From Saccoglossus kowalevskii (Eukaryota; Hemichordata; Enteropneusta; Harrimaniidae): 21,063 nucleotides of DNA. Shown here in pieces: positions 2,006-20,467 of this stretch. The position numbers were made by a program, and so were the translations under genes. The DNA is taken from NCBI RefSeq assembly GCF_000003605.2, contig NW_003120925.1, forward strand, positions 400,102 to 421,164. Direction: 5' to 3'. Under the pieces are notes generated by a model. That model was not told the DNA's origin and made no database searches. It was given only the letters and a program-made list of their open reading frames with translations. Every line of letters starts with the position of its first letter. The stretch's first letter is position 1.

Positions 2006-5000
2006 GTATGTTTTTTTGCTTATGTAAATGTGTTCGTGGAATATTTGCGGAGGATCATCATCTGCGCACGCGCGGGAGTTGAGTCCCAAGCTAAACACAC
2101 AAAGGCTCATGGGTAGACGCTTGTTTGTAAGCAATGACACGCTATGACCATCTGACGCATGCGCAGGTGACGACTCCTCCGCTTTAAAGATCGGTGGTCG
2201 TAGTATGCGCAGCACGGCTTCGAATATTAAATATGTAAATAAAAAATACATTTTACACGCGTTGAGTACGTCGCTATGAGTCCCATAGCGAACAGGTCGC
2301 GTTTATTCAGTAAACTTATTATTAGTGGTATTGGTGTGTTAGCAAATTATATAAACGTTCTGACAGACGTATTATGTACAACTTTCATTCATGCGTAGTC
2401 AAACAATAGTCGTTCATAGGATTCTTAAATTCTGAATACTGTAAAGGGGGAAATTATTCACTGGGTTTTAATTTAGCTTATTTCTCTGACTGGAAAAATG
2501 CGCTACAAAGCACAGTAGTGTTTATGTGTTCTGTACTGTATAGTGTAACTAAAATAAAAGATAGCCAGTGCTATCAAAATTAGCAAACATGTACCCAGTG
2601 AGACCTTGCACAATTGTGAAGTCAAAGTACACAAAATAAGATCATGAATGTTTTGTATATAACTACAGTGGGGAAATAGCCAGGGCCTTCAAACTTGGCA
2701 AACGTGTTCCCAAATTCGATCAGCAACACATGGACACAACAGACAGGGACAATAGTTTGAAGGTCATGGTCATATCATTGATTTATGTTATTTATATCCA
2801 GTATTAAGCTACTTGAGACATACGCTCCCTATGTAACTCGCATGACATGGTGGTCAAAGGTCAAAGTATATATGTGTATGTATGTTAACAATATAACTAC
2901 CAGGGAAAAATCGCTATTGTCTTTAAAACTTGGCACACATGATCCCAATATTTTACAGGACTGTTGCCAAGTATTGATATAAATATTAAAGAAATCTGGA
3001 ACATGTTGACATCTCTCCTGAGTTGTGAGTGTTATCTAGTTTCCAATTTATTTTAGGGGATGTCGATCTCCACTTCATCAATGCTCTGGTGGGTAAATAT
3101 ACGACGGTACACTACATTGTGGTGGATCCAGCATCTGATCAAATAGATGAATTCAAGACCTTAATTGAAGACCACAAGAGTCAGTGGAAAGGAGTCACAT
3201 TCAGTTTCCATATACAAGAAATAGATATGTATCTCTTAGAAGGTGGTAAATCCGATAACTACGACCTCATACACGCGTGTCATTCGATTTATTACTGTCG
3301 TGATGTGGCAAAAACAGCGCGCAGTTTATATGGTTCGCTGTTCAGTAATGGGTTGCTTCTCATAAGAGTCTCCACAGGTTAGTTCTTGCCATTGATTTTT
3401 GGAAACGGCATATGGGATAATTATAGGTGAAAGCTTGAACTTGATCTAGTAATTTGTGTCATATATAATGTCAGACATTTTCAGATTAACAACAAAACTA
3501 CACAAGCATTCACTCACTCTTAGACTGTCTGTCTCACTGGAGCTTACAAATGAGTTACAACATGTCAAACGTATATAAACTACCACAAATGTTTTCAACA
3601 AAATGTATTCGATTACCTGAAGCACCACAACGCTGGGTGGAAACAAATCACAACTAGAAGGCACTCCGTGAGCATAATCCTTTACCCTAGTATACGTTCT
3701 CTTTGTATGAAAAATCTTATTTATCGTATTTACAAAACCATTTATTGTTTAAGAGAAAGACAAAATTAAGTTTAGAATGAGTTATTCTAGCAATGAAGAA
3801 GAATTTGTCTCAATAGCTACTAGATGCAGATCTCACCTGAAATATACTCATTTGGTTTTGAAAAACGTCTCGTCCTAATCAACTAAAAAGAAAAATTGTA
3901 AGCCTTTTTAATTATCTATCAAAGATAGTCATTTAGAATCGTCTTTAGAATGATTTTGTTTCCATGGCAACGAGATCTAAAATACAACTTACCAATTTTA
4001 ATCTGTTTTCAAGGGAACCCCCTGAAAATGTCATGATAATCTATAATTTTGTTAAGTAAGTACAAATTACATTGAATGATGGAAGTTATTGTTACCATGG
4101 CAATCTGATTTGCATCACCAGATAAATCTAAATCATTCCCGTGTCAAAGGCAACCACTGACAAATCATTCTCCTAAATTGGTGTTCCAATTCACATCTTT
4201 TTCAAAATCTCTACGATTGGTTCACGCGTTTGAGCACAATATTATAATAATTACAGTTATAAAAGTCATTTCAAAATGTGTGATTCCATTGCAACCACGC
4301 CCACTTTCCGCATATTCTCGACCCTACCAAAAGTTACTTGGGCTCGTTCTTTTTTCAAGAGTAATATTTCACGAAAATCTATAAACTTTTGACTTGATAC
4401 AACTGCTTCCATCCTTTAGTATTGAGGATGTTCGATAAATGTTAAAATCATTATATGCATATTTATTTAAAACAATGACGTAAGCACCCTAATTGATTGG
4501 TATTGTAGTATACAATATCCTTCTCCTAAAAAAACAAGTAATTTATCAAATGAAAGGTACCTACAATATGGCAGCCTTCGCAACAAGTTGTCAACACATC
4601 GATTAAACCATAAAATTAGCCAAACAGGAATGTTTCAAGCTGTGATCGATGTGAAATGCCTCATTATAAAATTGTAGAAAACAACATATTCGCTCATGTG
4701 TGCCATAACTACTACTGACAAACACCAAATTTTCTTTGTCACACAAAAAGGGAAGCATTTCAATTACATGTATTTCAGTTTATATTCTTATTATATTCAC
4801 AGGTGGCGGATGGAAGAAATATTTTAAACTGGTCGGATATTCATCGACTGGTACAGATATCAAACCTTTGATAGTCCGCCATATTCCTGATTCCACCATT
4901 GAAGTAATATGTGACACTGCAGAAGTCATTGTTAATGAGTGTTTTGACGAAAGTTCATTAGATGGCAATAGAATGTGGGATTTTCTAAACCATGTTTTAC

Positions 5001-5134
5001 ACTTCAGGCAATCAGGCTCACCAGAACTGATTGCTGAGCGATTGAAATATTTAAAAAATGAATGCTGTTATATAAAGGGCGATGATATATTGCTAGACGT
5101 AGTTGAAGAAGACATCATTATTTTTAGCAGATGA
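1819..5134 (+). CDS. Histamine N-methyltransferase-like protein, three coding exons
   Basis: Spliced coding region 1819-2005, 3057-3377 and 4803-5134, which joins in frame to 840 nt (279 aa plus TGA). All junctions are GT..AG and both introns are phase 1. The product looks like a class I SAM-dependent methyltransferase of the HNMT family (human HNMT is 292 aa). Residues 55-63 (VLSVGSGNG), completed across the first junction, form SAM motif I. The VVDPASDQI stretch at 84-92 supplies an acidic residue (D86) and Q91 where HNMT has its SAM-contacting Glu and Gln. IYY at 140-142 matches the paired tyrosines of the HNMT substrate pocket. GGGW near the start of exon 3 matches the GSSGW region, and WDFL resembles the HNMT C-terminal lobe. 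The likely reaction is cytosolic N-methylation of a small amine. The substrate is uncertain because some histamine-contact positions differ. Start: first ATG at 1819; the preceding GTG is not used. Family call strong; histamine specificity not supported. Confidence 0.88.
2042..2187. mobile_element. TTAA-flanked MITE, copy 2, in intron 1 of the HNMT-like gene
   Basis: Same orientation as copy 1, sharing GGCTCATGGGTAGACGCTTG (2104-2123) exactly and most of the rest. The left end is eroded (TTGCGGAGGATCATCATC) and the right end is intact (CTCCGCTTTAA). It begins only about 36 nt inside the intron after the exon 1 donor. Confidence 0.72.
2271..2291. repeat. Small hairpin
   Basis: Perfect 8-bp inverted repeat TCGCTATG / CATAGCGA with a 5-nt loop in intron 1. 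Function unknown; it may be chance. Confidence 0.4.
2437..2495. mobile_element. Solo end of a TACTGTAAAGGGG foldback element
   Basis: Begins TACTGTAAAGGGGGAAATT and continues through TTCACTGGGTTTTAATT. This closely matches the terminal repeat of the element at 19084-19283. No matching inverted partner is visible nearby, so it looks like a truncated copy. Confidence 0.6.
2545..2960. repeat. Degenerate tandem repeat, ~117-bp period, intron 1
   Basis: About four diverged units. The anchor motif CAAACTTGGCAAACGTGTTC (2690-2709) recurs in decayed form near 2582 (AGCAAACATGTACCC), near 2814 (GAGACATACGCTCCC) and near 2932 (GGCACACATGATCCC), giving spacings of 115-118 bp. Each unit also carries a GGTCAAAG/GTCAAAG-like stretch. 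The TTCAAACTTGG anchor also occurs in the array at 17838. Confidence 0.6.
3057..3377 (+). CDS. HNMT-like gene, coding exon 2
   Basis: Acceptor TTTATTTTAG ends at 3056 and donor CACAG|GTTAG begins at 3378. The exon starts by completing a Gly codon and reads DVDLHF, the continuation of SAM motif I (compare GEIDLQ in HNMT). It carries the acidic loop VVDP, the YDLIHACHSIYY segment and the beta strand LLLIRVST. It is phase 1 at both ends. Confidence 0.88.
3958..4295. promoter_or_regulatory. X-box-like (RFX-type) motifs in intron 2
   Basis: GTTTCCATGGCAAC at 3958-3971 and GTTACCATGGCAAT at 4091-4104 are imperfect inverted repeats that resemble RFX X-boxes. GATTCCATTGCAAC at 4282-4295 is a weaker version. 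They may be units of a decayed repeat rather than functional sites. The rest of intron 2 (3378-4802) is AT-rich with nothing else recognised. Confidence 0.35.
4803..5134 (+). CDS. HNMT-like gene, terminal coding exon 3
   Basis: Acceptor TATATTCACAG ends at 4802. The first codon completes Gly, giving STGGGWKKYF. The exon encodes the C-terminal part of the fold, including WDFL and a hydrophobic last strand (DIIIFSR), and stops at TGA 5132-5134. The same reading frame is open a little upstream of the acceptor, but that part reads as intron. Confidence 0.87.
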
Positions 5135-7895: not shown

Positions 7896-8019
7896 TTAAA
7901 GCGGGAGAGTCGTCACCTGCGCATGCGTCAGATGGCCATAGCGTCAAGCGTCTACCCTCTGCGTTTTAGCGTGTGTTGTAATCGTCGCTTGGAACTCAAT
8001 TCCCGCGCGTGCGCTTTAA
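7896..8019. mobile_element. TTAA-flanked MITE, copy 3, internally deleted
   Basis: 124 bp between TTAA at 7896-7899 and 8016-8019, in the opposite orientation to copies 1 and 2. The left end AAGCGGGAGAGTCGTCACC is complete. The right end runs from CGCGCGTGCG straight into CTTTAA, so the outer CAGGTGACGACCCTCCC of the inverted repeat is missing. A dozen internal bases around the TTGTTTACAAAC motif are also lost. Confidence 0.7.
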
Positions 8020-10385: not shown

Positions 10386-10539
10386 TAGCATAGTGGTTGT
10401 TGCATCAGACTTATGATAGGTAGAGTAAGTATATATTTTGTGTTATCCTACCGACACCATAACAAACCATGTGAAAATAGAGAGCATTTATGTCTAATAC
10501 CTTATAATACCATAGCCATTTTTGCACATTGTCCCTTTT

Positions 10540-11485
10540 GGTTTTACATCTTCCGAACATTATGGAATATTCTTACAACTTCGTGTATGCATAACATCTT
10601 CTATTATGATGTCCTTTATGTATTATACTACTTTTATGAAATACACGAAAGGTATTTTTCTAGTCATCACTAAAAAATCACACATGGCTTTTTATGGATT
10701 GGGCCATATTGCTGTTGGTATGGATTTATTGTTTATTATGGTATCAGCTATTATGGACGTTATGGCTTTTTATGGTAAAATTAATTACACTTATATGATA
10801 CTTGATTGTGTAATGGTATATTATGGCTTCAGATTTATAATTTTATGGTAATATATGGTGTCAGAGTTCACTAAACCATGTGTTACTATACCATCATAAT
10901 TTTATTAAAATTTGATACACAGGAGCAAATCTGTTTAGACTAATGACATATTTTTGCTTCTAGCTGTTTTTGTTTATCATATTCATACTTAGGTTTTCTT
11001 TAGCCAAAATAAATTAGTGGTCAAACTGTAGAGATGGTTATTTCTTTTGATAAACAAATTCTTCTAAGATCATATTTAATATTAATATTTTAAAATGAAA
11101 GCTGTTTTAGCCCATGAAAAGGTTACTACATGGGCAGTACATGTAAATGCTAAATCTGTTGACAACATTTTGAGTTTCAAAATAAATTCAGAGTTTGACG
11201 GAATTTGATTGCCTCATTTAGGGAATTATATTCTGAAGCCATATTTTACCATAACATGTTATTTTATGGACCAAAGATTTCCTTTCCCAAGCCATAAAAA
11301 CCCATATTGTCTGGCTGAATACTTATTCCTACTGAAACCATATTGTACCATATCTGTAATTATTACTGAAGCCATATAATTCCGCAAGATAAATGCCTTA
11401 AGTTCTGCACAATCTGAACGCATAAAATACCATATAATTGATTTTAGACTGGAAACACCCCAAGCCATACAAAACCATATTTTGG
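10540..11485. repeat. Mirrored TATGG-rich and CCATA-rich blocks
   Basis: On the + strand, 10681-10860 holds nine TATGG and one CCATA, whereas 11221-11485 holds ten CCATA and one TATGG. The arms share longer words when one is reverse-complemented, such as ATGGCTTCAG (left near 10823, right near 11236 and 11374) and ATGG-TTTTTATGG-TTGGG (left near 10684, right near 11290). The spacer, about 10861-11220, lacks the pattern. The block is non-coding; open frames across it are low-complexity. Confidence 0.6.
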
Positions 11486-12700
11486 GGGGTAAATTTTTGT
11501 GCACCCTCCAAAATTCAAATTCTCCAGTAGCATAGTTACCGTAAATGATAAACCATGACTTACTCTTTTAGGCAAGTTCACTTTTATTTCTGGTTTCATG
11601 ATTTATTGCTGGTAAAGGATTGACCAGCTTTGTTATTAGTCCAAAAAAAAATTTTTCAGCTTGGAATGTGTCTGAACCCCTCATTAGGATACAAGAATGT
11701 AGGAATGTACCAAGAAAATTGTTTTTCTGGAGTAAATTGTAGTGTATTTTACTTATGAAAGGTCAAAAAGTGCATGGAGATTTTATGAAAATGTCTGGAT
11801 GTTAACAGAATAATGTCGTTTGGTCACAGTTACGTAATAAATGATGGACTATTTTTGGCGTAGCTATAAAATGTGTCACCGAAGTACTCACACGTGTGCA
11901 TGATTCCAATAGTTTGTGCTGTGAAGAAACTCCATTAGAAAATAAGTATTGTGTAATTTGTGGTGAGAACAGATTTATGTTTATGAATCTTGTGTCTTTT
12001 CAAAGTGTATTTATATAATAAAAATTGTTTATGAAAATGTTTTTTTATATTTTTTCGATGGATTGAATTTACAAATGATGAGTTATTTTGTTATACCATC
12101 ACTCGAATTATGTGTTACAAATTTCTGATAGTTTAGACTTTGTGTTCTTGTGAAATGCAGGTTATGTTAGGAAAAATTACTTCCACTCAAATGTCACTCT
12201 CAGATCATTCAAATTGCAATCTTGTTTTCTTTGTATACATCTAACTTATTATTGTTAATTGTCTTCTAAAATATGGACTAAAAAAACCCTCTCCTAAATC
12301 AAGAATGCACTACAATAGTGGCCCACTGCTCAGATATTGTATTGTGCCTTTTGACCTCCATTCTGTCTACCGGTATATAATATTTGTCTTAATAATTCAC
12401 TTACAGTTGTATAAGAATATACAGGCAACAGTGATACAGAAAACCTGCATATTTTTCTGTTATTAGGAGATCAAAAACCATTTTCTTTTTTTCAACAATT
12501 GATGACTATTAAATTTACAACATTATAGCACTGTATGTCAAATGTATAAGTTTTTTTTTAAAGGGAAGAGATTCAAGGGGAAAGAAGTAAAAGTCACTCA
12601 CTGTTACATAACACCAGCAATAAGCTGACTTAGCATTATTATATGCAGGCTTTTTGTTTTTATTTTTACACCCTGAATTTTAATAGCCACACAATCATAC
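11486..12700. other. Non-coding, AT-rich, nothing recognised
   Basis: Probably part of the first intron or the upstream region of the zinc-finger gene. No exon, RNA gene or clear element seen. Confidence 0.45.
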
Positions 12701-13410: not shown

Positions 13411-13640
13411 TTATTTTTGGCATCAGTACCTGTTTTGATGGACAGTATGATACATGTGCAATAACCCATGACATGTTGTTGTAAAACTAGCAATTGGCAA
13501 AATATTAATGTTCTCGAATGCGAATTGGCTAATTGCTTGGGTTTTGCCTGAACAGTTGCCTGTACAAAACTTTATACTTTCTGTTATTGCAAAAATGTCA
13601 AAATTGCATGTGTCATTTCTCTTCTAGGTGTTACATACAG

Positions 13641-16600
13641 ATGCAGATGACATGCTGTGACAAGATGACAGATCAAGAAATGTGTCAGGAAAATTTGTTG
13701 GAAACTGCCGCTTTGACAAATAATATCCAGATTCATACAGAAAGCAAACCTTTTCGCTGTGAACTATGTGCAAAGAGTTTTGCACACAATATTTATTTGA
13801 CAGTTCATATGAGAACACACACTGGTGATCGACCCTTTCAATGTTTGCAATGTGGGAAGTGCTTTAGCCAGCAAACGACTCTAACAAGACATATATTGAC
13901 ACACACTGGAGAGAAACCTTTTAAATGTGAACAGTGTGAGAAGAGTTTCAGCCAACAGGGAACTCTGACAAGGCATATGTTGACACATTCAGAAGAGAAG
14001 CCATATCAATGTCTACAGTGTAATGGACGTTTTCGTGACCTGAATAGTTTGAAAAAGCACATGAAAGTTCATAACAAACCATTCCATTGTGAACAATGTG
14101 GACAGAGCTTTACCAAAAATATTGATTTGGGAATTCACATGAGAATACATGCTGGTGAGAAACCATATCAATGTGAACTATGTGGGCAGAGTTTTGCACA
14201 CAAGATTTATTTGACAGGTCATTTGAGAATACACACCGGTGAGCGACCATTTGAGTGTAAGCACTGTGGGAAATGCTTTAGCCAGCAGACAACTCTTACA
14301 CGACATACGATGACACACACAGGGGAGAAGCCATTCAAATGTGATCAGTGTGGGAAGAGTTTCAGTCAACAGGGAACTCTGACGAGGCATTCATTGATTC
14401 ATTCGGAAGAAAAGCCATTTCAATGTCAGCAGTGTAATGGATGTTTCCGAGACCCAAATAGTTTAAAAAAGCACATGAAAGTTCATAACAAACCATTCCA
14501 TTGTGAACAATGTGGACAGAGCTTCACCAAAAATACTGATTTGGGAATTCACATGAGAATACATGCTGGTGAGAAACCATTTCAGTGTGAACTGTGTGGG
14601 CAAAGTTTTGCACAAAAGATTTATTTGACAGTTCATTTGAGAACACATACTGGTGAGCGACCATTCGAGTGTAAGCATTGTGGGAAATGCTTTAGCCAAC
14701 CAACAACGCTGACTAAACATACATTGACGCATACTGGAGAGAAGCCATACAAATGTAAAGAGTGTGAGAAAGGCTTCACTCAGCAGGGAACTCTGACGAG
14801 GCACATGTTGGTACATACAGGAGAAAAGCCGTTTATATGTCTACAGTGTAATGGACGTTTCCGTGACCTGAACAGTTTGAAAAAGCACATGAAAGTTCAT
14901 AACAAACCATTTCATTGTGAACAATGTGGACAGAGCTTCACCAAAAATACTGATTTGGGAATTCACATGAGAATACATGCTGGTGAGAAACCATATCAAT
15001 GTGAACTATGTGGGCAGAGTTTTGCACATAAGATTTATTTGACAGGTCATTTGAGAATACACACCGGTGAGCGACCATATAAATGTAAAGACTGTGGGAA
15101 GTGTTTTAGCCAGCAGACAACGCTTACTAAACATACATTGACACATACTGGTGAAAAGCCTTTCAAATGTGAACAGTGCGAGAAAAGCTTCACTCAGCAG
15201 GGAACTCTGACGAGACATTTATTGATACACACAGGAGAAAAGCCATTTGCATGTGAGCAGTGTAATGGACGTTTCCGTGAGCAGAGTAGTTTAAGAAAGC
15301 ACATGAAAATACATGACAAACCTTTTCATTGTCAACAGTGTGGACGCAGCTTCGCCGATGATAATCTATTGAGAAGTCACATGAGAATTCATGCTGGGGA
15401 AAAACCATTTAAATGTGAACTATGTGCAAAGTATTTCACTCAAAACCTACATTTGCGTGTTCATATGAGAACCCATACTGGCGAGAAGCCATTTCGATGC
15501 AACCTATGTGGAAAGGGATTTAGCCAACAGGGTACGATGACTAGGCATAAATTGACACACACAGGTCAGAAGCCATACCAGTGTAAACATTGTGGCCAGC
15601 GTTTCAGAGAAAAGATTAGTATGAGACGTCACACAAGAACACATGAAACAAAACTGTTTCATTGCAAGAAATGTGGGCTTAGTCTGGCCCAGAAGAGTGA
15701 CTTAAGAATTCACATGAGGACGCATGCAGATGAAAGGCATTTTCAGTGTGAACTTTGTGCCAAGATGTTTGCACAAAGAACTTATTTGCGAATTCATATG
15801 AGGACCCATACAGGGGAGAAGCCATATCAATGTAAACAGTGTGGGAGGCGCTTTAGTCAACATGGGACTATGACGAGGCATGCTTTGACACACACAGATC
15901 AACTTCAATATCGAGAATGTGAGAGACCAGATACTGAATTGTCGAGTATAAGAAACCAAGAGTGTATGGCAAGCCAACAACAACAAGACTTGGAGAGTTC
16001 CATAAAGTCGCTTGCTATTAAACATGCAATTCATTGTAAAGAATGTGATAAACTCTTTGCCAGCAATATTGCATTGAGAATTCATATGAGGACTCACACC
16101 GGTGAGAAGCCATACAAGTGTAATCTATGTGGAAAGAGTTTCAGCCAGCATGGGACTATGACAAGGCATGTATTGACACACTCGGCTCATAAACCATTGA
16201 AGTGCGAACAATGTGGTCGACGTTTTCGTGAAAAAAATAGCCTGAGAAGACACTTGAGAATACATGATGAGAAACAGTATCAGTGTGGTGAATGTGATCA
16301 GAAGTTTGTTCAAAAGAATGATTTGAGGATCCATATGAAGACGCATACAGGTGAAAAGCCTTTTCAGTGTGAATTATGTGCAAAGAGATTTGCACAACTG
16401 GTCTATTTAAAAATCCATTTGAGGACCCATACCGGTGAAAAACCATTTCAATGTACACACTGTGATAAGCGCTTCAGTCAACATGGAACAATGACTAGGC
16501 ATACTTTGATACATGCGAGCCAAAAACCTTTTCAGTGCAATCAATGTGATCGACAATTTTCTGAAATGTATAGTATGGAGAAACATATGAGAACACATAA

Positions 16601-17231
16601 TAAGAAACTCTTCTGCTGTGAACACTGTGGTTGTAACTTCACATTATACAAAGATTTGAGAATTCACATGAAGATTCATAAGGGGGAAAAGCTCTTTAAT
16701 TGTGAACTATGTGAAAAAGGTTTTACCCGGAAAAATTATTTAAAAGTTCACATGAGAACGCATAGTGGGGAGAAGCCATTTAAATGTCAAATATGTGGGA
16801 AAAGATTCAGTCAGCATGGTACAATGTCACGGCATACATTATTACACAAAGGAAGGCAATCATTTCAGTATACATGTATACTACGTGGAAAACATACACA
16901 AGTTGATCATAAGGATCAAGGAGTTCTCTATCCCATACAATGTGTTCCTGCCTCTACATTTACAAATGTTAATTATGAGTATGAACTAGGAATTAACGGC
17001 TACACTCATGAGTTAAATGCTCATCCTGAACAAATGGTTATAGTATACGATGCAGATACACGTCTGTTAAACACTGTACATGGTAACGATTTATCACGAG
17101 TGTCACCATCTAGTCAATATGATGTATCCAATTATATCAATGTATGTAATGGAGCTGTGGTTACAAAACTTGAAGAGTGTTTGACAGAGATAGAAGGAAT
17201 AGAAACTTATCATGCCATGTGGTGGCACTGA
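13641..17231 (+). CDS. Large C2H2 zinc-finger protein, 36 fingers
   Basis: One uninterrupted exon with an acceptor (TTTCTCTTCTAG) ending at 13627; the open frame upstream of it reads as intron. First ATG 13641 gives 1196 aa; ATG 13665 (AAGATGA, better Kozak) is an alternative. Residues 1-37 have no KRAB, SCAN, BTB or ZAD domain. Thirty-six C-X2-C-X12-H-X3-H fingers follow: 1-26 at residues 38-756, a 40-residue spacer (757-796) holding a decayed finger, then 27-36 at 797-1069, joined mostly by TGEKP-type linkers. Residues 1070-1196 form a tail with no recognised domain. The protein is presumably a nuclear sequence-specific DNA-binding factor; with no effector domain its activity cannot be inferred. 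Fingers 1-19 form near-identical five-finger modules and 20-36 mostly four-finger modules. Finger 24 has Leu in place of the core Phe. An upstream exon could add N-terminal residues. Confidence 0.93.
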   Translation: MQMTCCDKMTDQEMCQENLLETAALTNNIQIHTESKPFRCELCAKSFAHNIYLTVHMRTHTGDRPFQCLQCGKCFSQQTTLTRHILTHTGEKPFKCEQCEKSFSQQGTLTRHMLTHSEEKPYQCLQCNGRFRDLNSLKKHMKVHNKPFHCEQCGQSFTKNIDLGIHMRIHAGEKPYQCELCGQSFAHKIYLTGHLRIHTGERPFECKHCGKCFSQQTTLTRHTMTHTGEKPFKCDQCGKSFSQQGTLTRHSLIHSEEKPFQCQQCNGCFRDPNSLKKHMKVHNKPFHCEQCGQSFTKNTDLGIHMRIHAGEKPFQCELCGQSFAQKIYLTVHLRTHTGERPFECKHCGKCFSQPTTLTKHTLTHTGEKPYKCKECEKGFTQQGTLTRHMLVHTGEKPFICLQCNGRFRDLNSLKKHMKVHNKPFHCEQCGQSFTKNTDLGIHMRIHAGEKPYQCELCGQSFAHKIYLTGHLRIHTGERPYKCKDCGKCFSQQTTLTKHTLTHTGEKPFKCEQCEKSFTQQGTLTRHLLIHTGEKPFACEQCNGRFREQSSLRKHMKIHDKPFHCQQCGRSFADDNLLRSHMRIHAGEKPFKCELCAKYFTQNLHLRVHMRTHTGEKPFRCNLCGKGFSQQGTMTRHKLTHTGQKPYQCKHCGQRFREKISMRRHTRTHETKLFHCKKCGLSLAQKSDLRIHMRTHADERHFQCELCAKMFAQRTYLRIHMRTHTGEKPYQCKQCGRRFSQHGTMTRHALTHTDQLQYRECERPDTELSSIRNQECMASQQQQDLESSIKSLAIKHAIHCKECDKLFASNIALRIHMRTHTGEKPYKCNLCGKSFSQHGTMTRHVLTHSAHKPLKCEQCGRRFREKNSLRRHLRIHDEKQYQCGECDQKFVQKNDLRIHMKTHTGEKPFQCELCAKRFAQLVYLKIHLRTHTGEKPFQCTHCDKRFSQHGTMTRHTLIHASQKPFQCNQCDRQFSEMYSMEKHMRTHNKKLFCCEHCGCNFTLYKDLRIHMKIHKGEKLFNCELCEKGFTRKNYLKVHMRTHSGEKPFKCQICGKRFSQHGTMSRHTLLHKGRQSFQYTCILRGKHTQVDHKDQGVLYPIQCVPASTFTNVNYEYELGINGYTHELNAHPEQMVIVYDADTRLLNTVHGNDLSRVSPSSQYDVSNYINVCNGAVVTKLEECLTEIEGIETYHAMWWH
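13752..15323 (+). repeat. Coding higher-order repeat, 414-bp five-finger modules
   Basis: Fingers 5-9, 10-14 and 15-19 begin at 14082, 14496 and 14910, exactly 414 bp apart (four 28-aa fingers plus one of 26 aa). Fingers 1-4 (13752-14081) are the same module lacking its first finger. Long runs are nearly identical between units, for example around CATTGTGAACAATGTGGACA at the start of each. Each module ends with a finger of the NGRFRDLNSLKKH type followed by a shortened HNKP or HDKP linker. This indicates recent tandem duplication or gene conversion. Confidence 0.9.
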
Positions 17232-20325: not shown

Positions 20326-20467
20326 CTAAAAACGCATGCGCAGGTGGCCATAGCGTCATTGTTTACAAACAGGCATCTACCTATGAGACTTTGCGTTATC
20401 GTGTGTTGTTATCGTCACTTGGAACTCAATTCCCGCGCGTGCGCAGGTGACGACCCTCCCGCCTTAA
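20326..20467. mobile_element. TTAA-flanked MITE, copy 4, in an intron of the VWD gene
   Basis: Oriented like copy 3. The right end is well preserved: CGCGCGTGCGCAGGTGACGA, then CCCTCCCGCCTTAA. The left end has lost the outer inverted repeat and starts around CGCATGCGCAGG. It ends 45 bp from the splice donor of the VWD exon (- strand). Confidence 0.7.

Follow-up and report, generated by a model that had tools for sequence, protein, structure and literature searches.

The window, which is the whole stretch of DNA analyzed here (C1347:400102-421164, 21,063 bases from an assembly of 572 Mb), carries 36 C2H2 zinc fingers in a single open frame on the forward strand (13533-17231, 1232 aa), as counted with the strict pattern C-X2-C-X12-H-X3-H. 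Zinc-finger genes together with exon-like pieces point to an animal as the source. The frame matched the Pfam family PF00096 (zf-C2H2) with 532 bits (cut-off 25.2), zf-H2C2_2 was also matched, and a C-terminal tail of 127 aa contains no fingers. With its finger pattern above the Pfam cut-off and its mostly five-residue linkers, the array has the features of a zf-C2H2 protein. KRAB, SCAN, BTB, ZAD and PR/SET were absent from the 11 Pfam families in the frame, a search that covered this frame alone, with any upstream exons lying outside it. Ahead of the coding part, a splice-acceptor-like sequence, ttctcttctag (13617-13627), was read by eye; given this putative acceptor, the frame probably begins within an intron, so that its first listed codons may be intronic, and it is probably one large 3' exon of a zinc-finger gene.

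The first 20 fingers (F1-F20) form four copies of a 414-bp module made of the finger types A-B-C-D-E (Table 1). Tandem Repeats Finder reported a period of 414 at 13758-15426, with 4.0 copies, 85% matches, and no indels. When helix positions -1, 2, 3, and 6 were taken as contact residues, contact identity among F1-F20 was 0.78 at a lag of five fingers, compared to 0.06-0.21 at lags 1-4 and 6-8, and the observed periodicity was matched by 0 of 2000 shuffles of the order of all 36 fingers. The most diverged D and E fingers among the four modules are those of module 4. The earlier note had described 3.8 modules of 414 bp at 13752-15323, and this proved correct; the stated end lies just short of F20, which starts at 15324 as the fourth E finger and has a helix altered to DDNLLRS. 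It had also listed helices that recur almost unchanged between modules; QQGTLTR is indeed present in 4/4 modules, but QQTTLTR and NTDLGI each occur exactly as written in only 2/4, the remaining helices at these positions being QPTTLTK and QQTTLTK (R to K at position 6) and NIDLGI and DDNLLRS, respectively. The repeat observation is real and extends beyond that description, since the array continues to 16847 and has a second period.

This second period is found in F21-F36, 16 older, diverged fingers in which a cassette A-C-D-E recurs with 333-nt spacing. In this part, lags 4, 6, and 10 gave contact identities of 0.46, 0.48, and 0.58, respectively, a pattern explained by a four-finger period minus one D and one E. 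The site of this loss is the 68-residue gap between F26 and F27, the latter being the weakest type-A assignment. The D-like part of the gap aligned best with the D finger F33, scoring above 200 of 200 shuffles, and is shortened, with 45 nt missing from the 333-nt register (a spacing of 621, i.e., 666 - 45); the part that follows keeps register at 333 nt with F30 and at 288 nt with F24 and, by this register, would be a degenerate E. At the N-terminal edge of the array, a further stretch gave its best gapped alignment with the E finger F30, at a score that 3 of 200 shuffles also attained, which moderately supports its assignment as a degenerate E finger. In a tree built from the DNA of all 36 fingers, these grouped mostly by type, with only 69 columns and many unresolved forks. 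Type B formed a single clade (98/92) within a B+C group (100/99), beside the old C fingers (91/81). B thus originated from a C-like finger, in an event that predates either the spread of the young modules or the loss of B from the old cassettes.

Table 1. Features of the zinc-finger array (positions in the window)
Feature	Position	Strand	Evidence
Putative degenerate E at N-terminal edge	13668..13751	+	414-nt register with F5 E, gapped alignment
Five-finger module 1, F1-F5 (A B C D E)	13752..14165	+	Repeat period, contact identity, DNA identity
Five-finger module 2, F6-F10	14166..14579	+	Repeat period, contact identity, DNA identity
Five-finger module 3, F11-F15	14580..14993	+	Repeat period, contact identity, DNA identity
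Five-finger module 4, F16-F20	14994..15407	+	Repeat period, contact identity, DNA identity
Homogenised tract (half D, E, A)	14031..14255	+	216/225 identical to partner 14859-15083
Partner of homogenised tract	14859..15083	+	216/225 identical to 14031-14255
Older cassette A-C-D-E, F21-F24	15408..15740	+	Contact identity, 333-nt spacing
Older cassette, A + C only, F25-F26	15741..15893	+	Finger pattern, contact identity
Degenerate shortened D and putative degenerate E	15903..16028	+	Register, alignment
Older cassette, F27-F30	16029..16361	+	Contact identity, spacing, tree
Older cassette, F31-F34	16362..16694	+	Contact identity, spacing
Final half cassette, A + C, F35-F36	16695..16847	+	Finger pattern, contact identity

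When the young modules were compared in 42-nt steps, DNA identity among modules 1-3 was 95-100% for the second half of D and the whole of E (96-99% for E itself), and that between A of module 2 and A of module 4 was 99%, compared to 76-86% for B and C. Synonymous divergence among the E fingers F5, F10, and F15 was low (pS 0.11). The 225-nt tract in Table 1, whose limits were set after inspection of the module-by-module identity, is 96% identical to its partner, and its flanks are 146/180 and 148/180 identical (81-82%). Such a tract between diverged flanks is better explained by gene conversion or by serial unequal exchange than by simple whole-module duplication, and it shows that homogenisation was patchy. 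The longest runs of identical third positions were longer than in shuffled data at lag 414 (P 0.025) and at lag 828 (P 0.0075), with no excess over shuffles at lag 1242 (P 0.59). Because synonymous sites are nearly identical in E, and in A of modules 2 and 4, the likeness of the helices in these fingers requires no selection.

We examined the contact residues by finger type. The C contacts Q-1, G2, T3, and R6 are present in 9/9 copies. Among young C copies, pS was 0.49, with a contact pS of 0.38 and a contact pN of 0.00; in pairs with old copies, contact pS rose to 0.78 and contact pN was again 0.00. The four contact codons of C have undergone at least 7 changes, all synonymous, with a P of 1e-4 to 3e-4 under neutrality for a type chosen as the best among five. 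Consistent with this, 4/4 contact columns of C are invariant, compared to 1/10 framework columns (P 0.005). Since the contacts are fixed despite near-saturated synonymous sites, C is under purifying selection. Type B showed a pS of 0.64 and a contact pN of 0.09 among young copies. Pure recent duplication was ruled out for B and C by this high pS with kept contacts, and selection on the contacts is the simpler cause of their likeness.

In D, Asp/Glu at -1, Ser at 3, and Lys/Arg at 6 are each found in 7/7 copies; E has Asp3 and Ile6 in 6/7, and A has Tyr3 in 7/9. The majority residue at position 3 accounts for 93% of copies on average over the five types. Neither A nor E has an invariant contact column (0/4 each). 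For A, young copies gave a contact pN/pS of 1.17 and pairs with old copies one of 0.99, meaning that its contacts vary about as readily as synonymous sites; for this type alone, a ratio near 1 shows neither selection nor its absence. For all types, contact pN/pS was 0.23 among young copies, 0.37 between young and old, and 0.31 among old copies, with framework values of 0.40, 0.48, and 0.55, respectively. No excess of amino-acid change at contact positions was found when all types were pooled, the comparison being between modules of one gene and not between species. Invariant columns numbered 14/20 for contacts and 26/50 for exposed framework in the young copies (P 0.19) and 8/20 and 7/50, respectively, in all copies (P 0.025); replacement-to-synonymous counts of contacts against framework gave P 0.12 and 0.11, and a majority-frequency test gave P 0.078. 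Overall, the contact columns are only weakly more conserved than the exposed framework, and the claim of selected contacts depends mainly on C. The earlier note had taken the reuse of the same helices to predict a tandemly repeated target, with recent gene conversion as the competing explanation, and had regarded synonymous sites as conserved as the helices as a mark of simple duplication. Selection on the helices and recent homogenisation both apply, to different fingers: synonymous sites are that conserved in E and in A of modules 2 and 4 and are not in B and C, and the free change of the A contacts counts against the note's reading. The graded copies within this one gene, i.e., old and near-saturated, young, and homogenised, make it possible to separate selection on contacts from youth, finger by finger.

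According to passages of PMC8084297, five-residue TGEKP-like linkers typify DNA-binding fingers, and a site of 12-15 bp is usually read by four or five fingers. In the array, the D-to-E linker is short in 7/7 cases, NKP or DKP in young units and four residues in old ones; the remaining linkers have five residues in 27/27 cases (27/34 overall). Across 14 further arrays from this genome, 7/179 spacings were short. The short D-to-E linker would bound docking units of the form E-A-(B)-C-D. We modeled the C-D-E-A unit with AlphaFold2 (7 rows) and obtained four ordinary fingers with a mean pLDDT of 88.8. When the model was compared with the PDB, TM-scores normalized by query length were 0.43-0.59 for the best 50 of 377 matches, and these low scores make the overall bend of the model uninformative. 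By sequence, many zinc-finger-DNA complexes in the PDB were matched, and alignments across the D-E junction needed two extra linker residues in every case among the five alignments listed. The predicted structure confirms only that the unit consists of four ordinary fingers.

In the zinc-finger recognition code, Arg or Lys at position 6 reads G, Gln at -1 reads A, Asp or Glu at -1 reads C, and Ser or Thr at 3 reads T. Under this code, the word predicted for D-C-B is 5'-GnC GnA GnA (read 5' to 3' against the protein order), the bases of A and E being less certain. The core word GTCGTA, derived with this code, occurred 8 times in the window compared to 5.4 expected, a count that 15 of 100 shuffles equaled or exceeded, i.e., no signal, and autocorrelation of the window outside the frame gave no 12- or 15-nt peak. 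Arrays of 12- or 15-bp units with the predicted core were found neither in the window, by Tandem Repeats Finder, nor in 137 kb comprising the window and loci of its own genome, a tiny and non-random sample. Beside another zinc-finger gene (L021:9-520), we observed a tandem array of 17 copies of a 30-bp unit, twice 15 bp, in which the predicted core was absent by eye.

On balance, we consider it moderately probable that the gene encodes an avidity-type poly-C2H2 protein with a cassette-duplicated array whose units share the core of a 12-15-bp word. A four-finger cassette (E-A-C-D if cut at the short linker) would have been multiplied by repeated unequal duplication; the C-like finger B would then have joined it, and the resulting five-finger module would have been amplified to four copies, with the D-E-A part homogenised later by gene conversion or serial unequal exchange. 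The short D-to-E linker would separate docking units along the chain, each with four or five fingers, and, in view of the contacts kept in C, and also in B, D, and position 3 of most types, the core of the 12-15-bp word would be identical or nearly so for several units. The protein may be held by avidity where the word recurs, or where a single good copy anchors the rest, and it may act in transcription or on chromatin. If the shared-word reading is true, the gene would represent a zinc-finger array that gains valency, not diversity.

That only the C-D core binds DNA, the other repeats being carried along and conserved for folding or for contacts with protein or RNA, appears somewhat unlikely to us. 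Conservation is clearest in C and D while A and E drift, and passages of PMC10287918 describe long arrays elsewhere as a core with dependent flanking fingers and note that many long arrays use only some of their fingers. However, there are 36 intact fingers, and the degenerate ones detected number three, of which two are E-like and the third is D-like; five-residue linkers are retained throughout most of the array, and E itself has kept Asp3 and Ile6 in nearly all copies. Plain recent duplication with gene conversion, by which the helices would be alike from youth or homogenisation without selection for a shared word, accounts for the near-identical E of modules 1-3 and A of modules 2 and 4, for the third-position runs at lags 414 and 828, and for the absence of constraint on the A contacts. 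We nevertheless regard it as unlikely, as the contacts of young B and C hold at the synonymous divergences given above, and old C copies near synonymous saturation show zero contact change. The tandemly repeated, in-register target of the earlier note leads to a further explanation, by which the array is selected to bind a satellite or minisatellite whose period is 12 or 15 bp. Fixed-length units, a recurring short linker, and the contacts kept in C, B, and D would suit such a target, and PDB entry 7ysf, by its title ZNF524 on telomeric DNA, provides a precedent; but no core-matching array was seen in the small sample searched, a short linker would be expected to disturb strict in-register docking, and we hold this explanation to be very doubtful. 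A broader molecular-ruler reading, by which a four- and then a five-finger unit with fixed core contacts was multiplied to suit a repeated or clustered target and several long zinc-finger genes of this host grew independently by cassettes that partly retained their specificity, opposite to the diversifying mode of many vertebrate expansions, is in our view quite unlikely.

Several features are shared with known systems. Like the poly-C2H2 families of the KRAB type and of invertebrates, the array consists of tandem 28-residue fingers with TGEKP-type linkers, duplicated within one frame; it differs in that a four- or five-finger cassette is copied and the C contacts are fixed. ZFY has a two-finger repeat, and to our knowledge the fingers of CTCF are not copies of a single cassette; both differ in this respect from the window gene, whose fingers are. 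What ZFY and CTCF share with it is a long array, in which, as passages of PMC10287918 and PMC8084297 have it, core fingers set the main site and the others are dependent. PRDM9 likewise has a coding tandem repeat whose copies are homogenised or duplicated within the gene, but it repeats single 28-residue fingers with positive selection at DNA-contacting positions, as stated in part of PMC5120217, whereas the window gene repeats multi-finger units and keeps its C contacts. The earlier view that most expanded families diversify their helix residues agrees with passages of PMC2604467 on many vertebrate poly-zinc-finger expansions, which report positive selection at -1, 3, and 6, but not with the fly and mosquito expansions tested, for which the same passages give no positive-selection signal. 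Finger lineages with largely invariant contacts are described in part of PMC5588721, so conserved contacts alone are not exceptional, and part of PMC6444547 mentions an insect family whose proteins contain 3-45 fingers. The notable parts of the window gene are its two-layer cassette structure and its fixed C finger. Neither this gene nor satellite-binding cassette arrays were described among the papers listed by the literature search, a negative result of little weight, as part of the search gave mainly off-topic papers.

To place the array among others, we compared 28 arrays of at least 7 fingers, i.e., the window and 27 from loci matching the module DNA or the Pfam family; this sample is not random, as five loci were picked for long frames and several arrays are truncated at locus ends. 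Contact periodicity with P < 0.01 was detected in 4/28 arrays (the window, L022, L026, and L066), which are 4/7 of those with at least 20 fingers. The window gene is thus a good example, and an uncommonly clear case, of a known route of cassette growth. Its contact quartets (20 of 22 compared) were carried by 0/407 fingers from the other arrays, so the cassettes either were invented independently or are of great age. L026 (C343, 1156-6531) resembles the window gene in having a five-finger cassette repeated about eight times, among 42 loosely defined fingers, with pS of 0.45-0.69. Its type d, picked by position only, has Ser2 and Gln3 in 8/8 copies (pS 0.45, contact pN 0.15, framework 0.18), and its type c was picked by helix motif, hence its constancy is circular. 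Unlike in the window gene, contacts are not kept in types b and e (contact pN 0.36 and 0.27 compared to 0.25 and 0.24 for the framework), the contacts are unrelated and unusual (Tyr-1/Val3; Leu-1/Gln3), and there is no regular short linker (2/33 short spacings).

Contact periodicity elsewhere was of four fingers in L022 (C3045) and L021 (C2856), the latter at P ~0.01 only, and of eight fingers in L066 (C1213). L024 (C912) contains seven nearly identical single fingers, and at C1912:108659 a zinc finger lies inside an open frame listed at 5736 residues. In viral contigs of public collections, no relatives were found. Relatives were present at 9 loci in bacterial genome bins, and L001 to L004 among these look like eukaryotic contamination. 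Zinc-finger-like arrays, mostly with 30-residue spacing, were observed in L005, L006, and L007, from Kistimonas bins, and may be bacterial or contaminant; in L005, contacts have a two-finger periodicity in two frames (lag 2 0.48 and 0.45).

Outside the frame, positions 10400-11600 of the window contain 24 TATGG/CCATA words in 1.2 kb, compared to 1-8 per 1.2 kb away from this region; in many cases about 10 nt separate one word from the next, and the cluster may be a decayed repeat. A dispersed G+C-rich repeat, probably a short mobile element, occurs in both orientations at 459-610, 2041-2187, 7896-8014, and 20333-20467. Two exon-like pieces were also observed, at 3050-3382, with a methyltransferase match below the cut-off, and at 4736-5131, with no Pfam match; both may resemble histamine N-methyltransferase.
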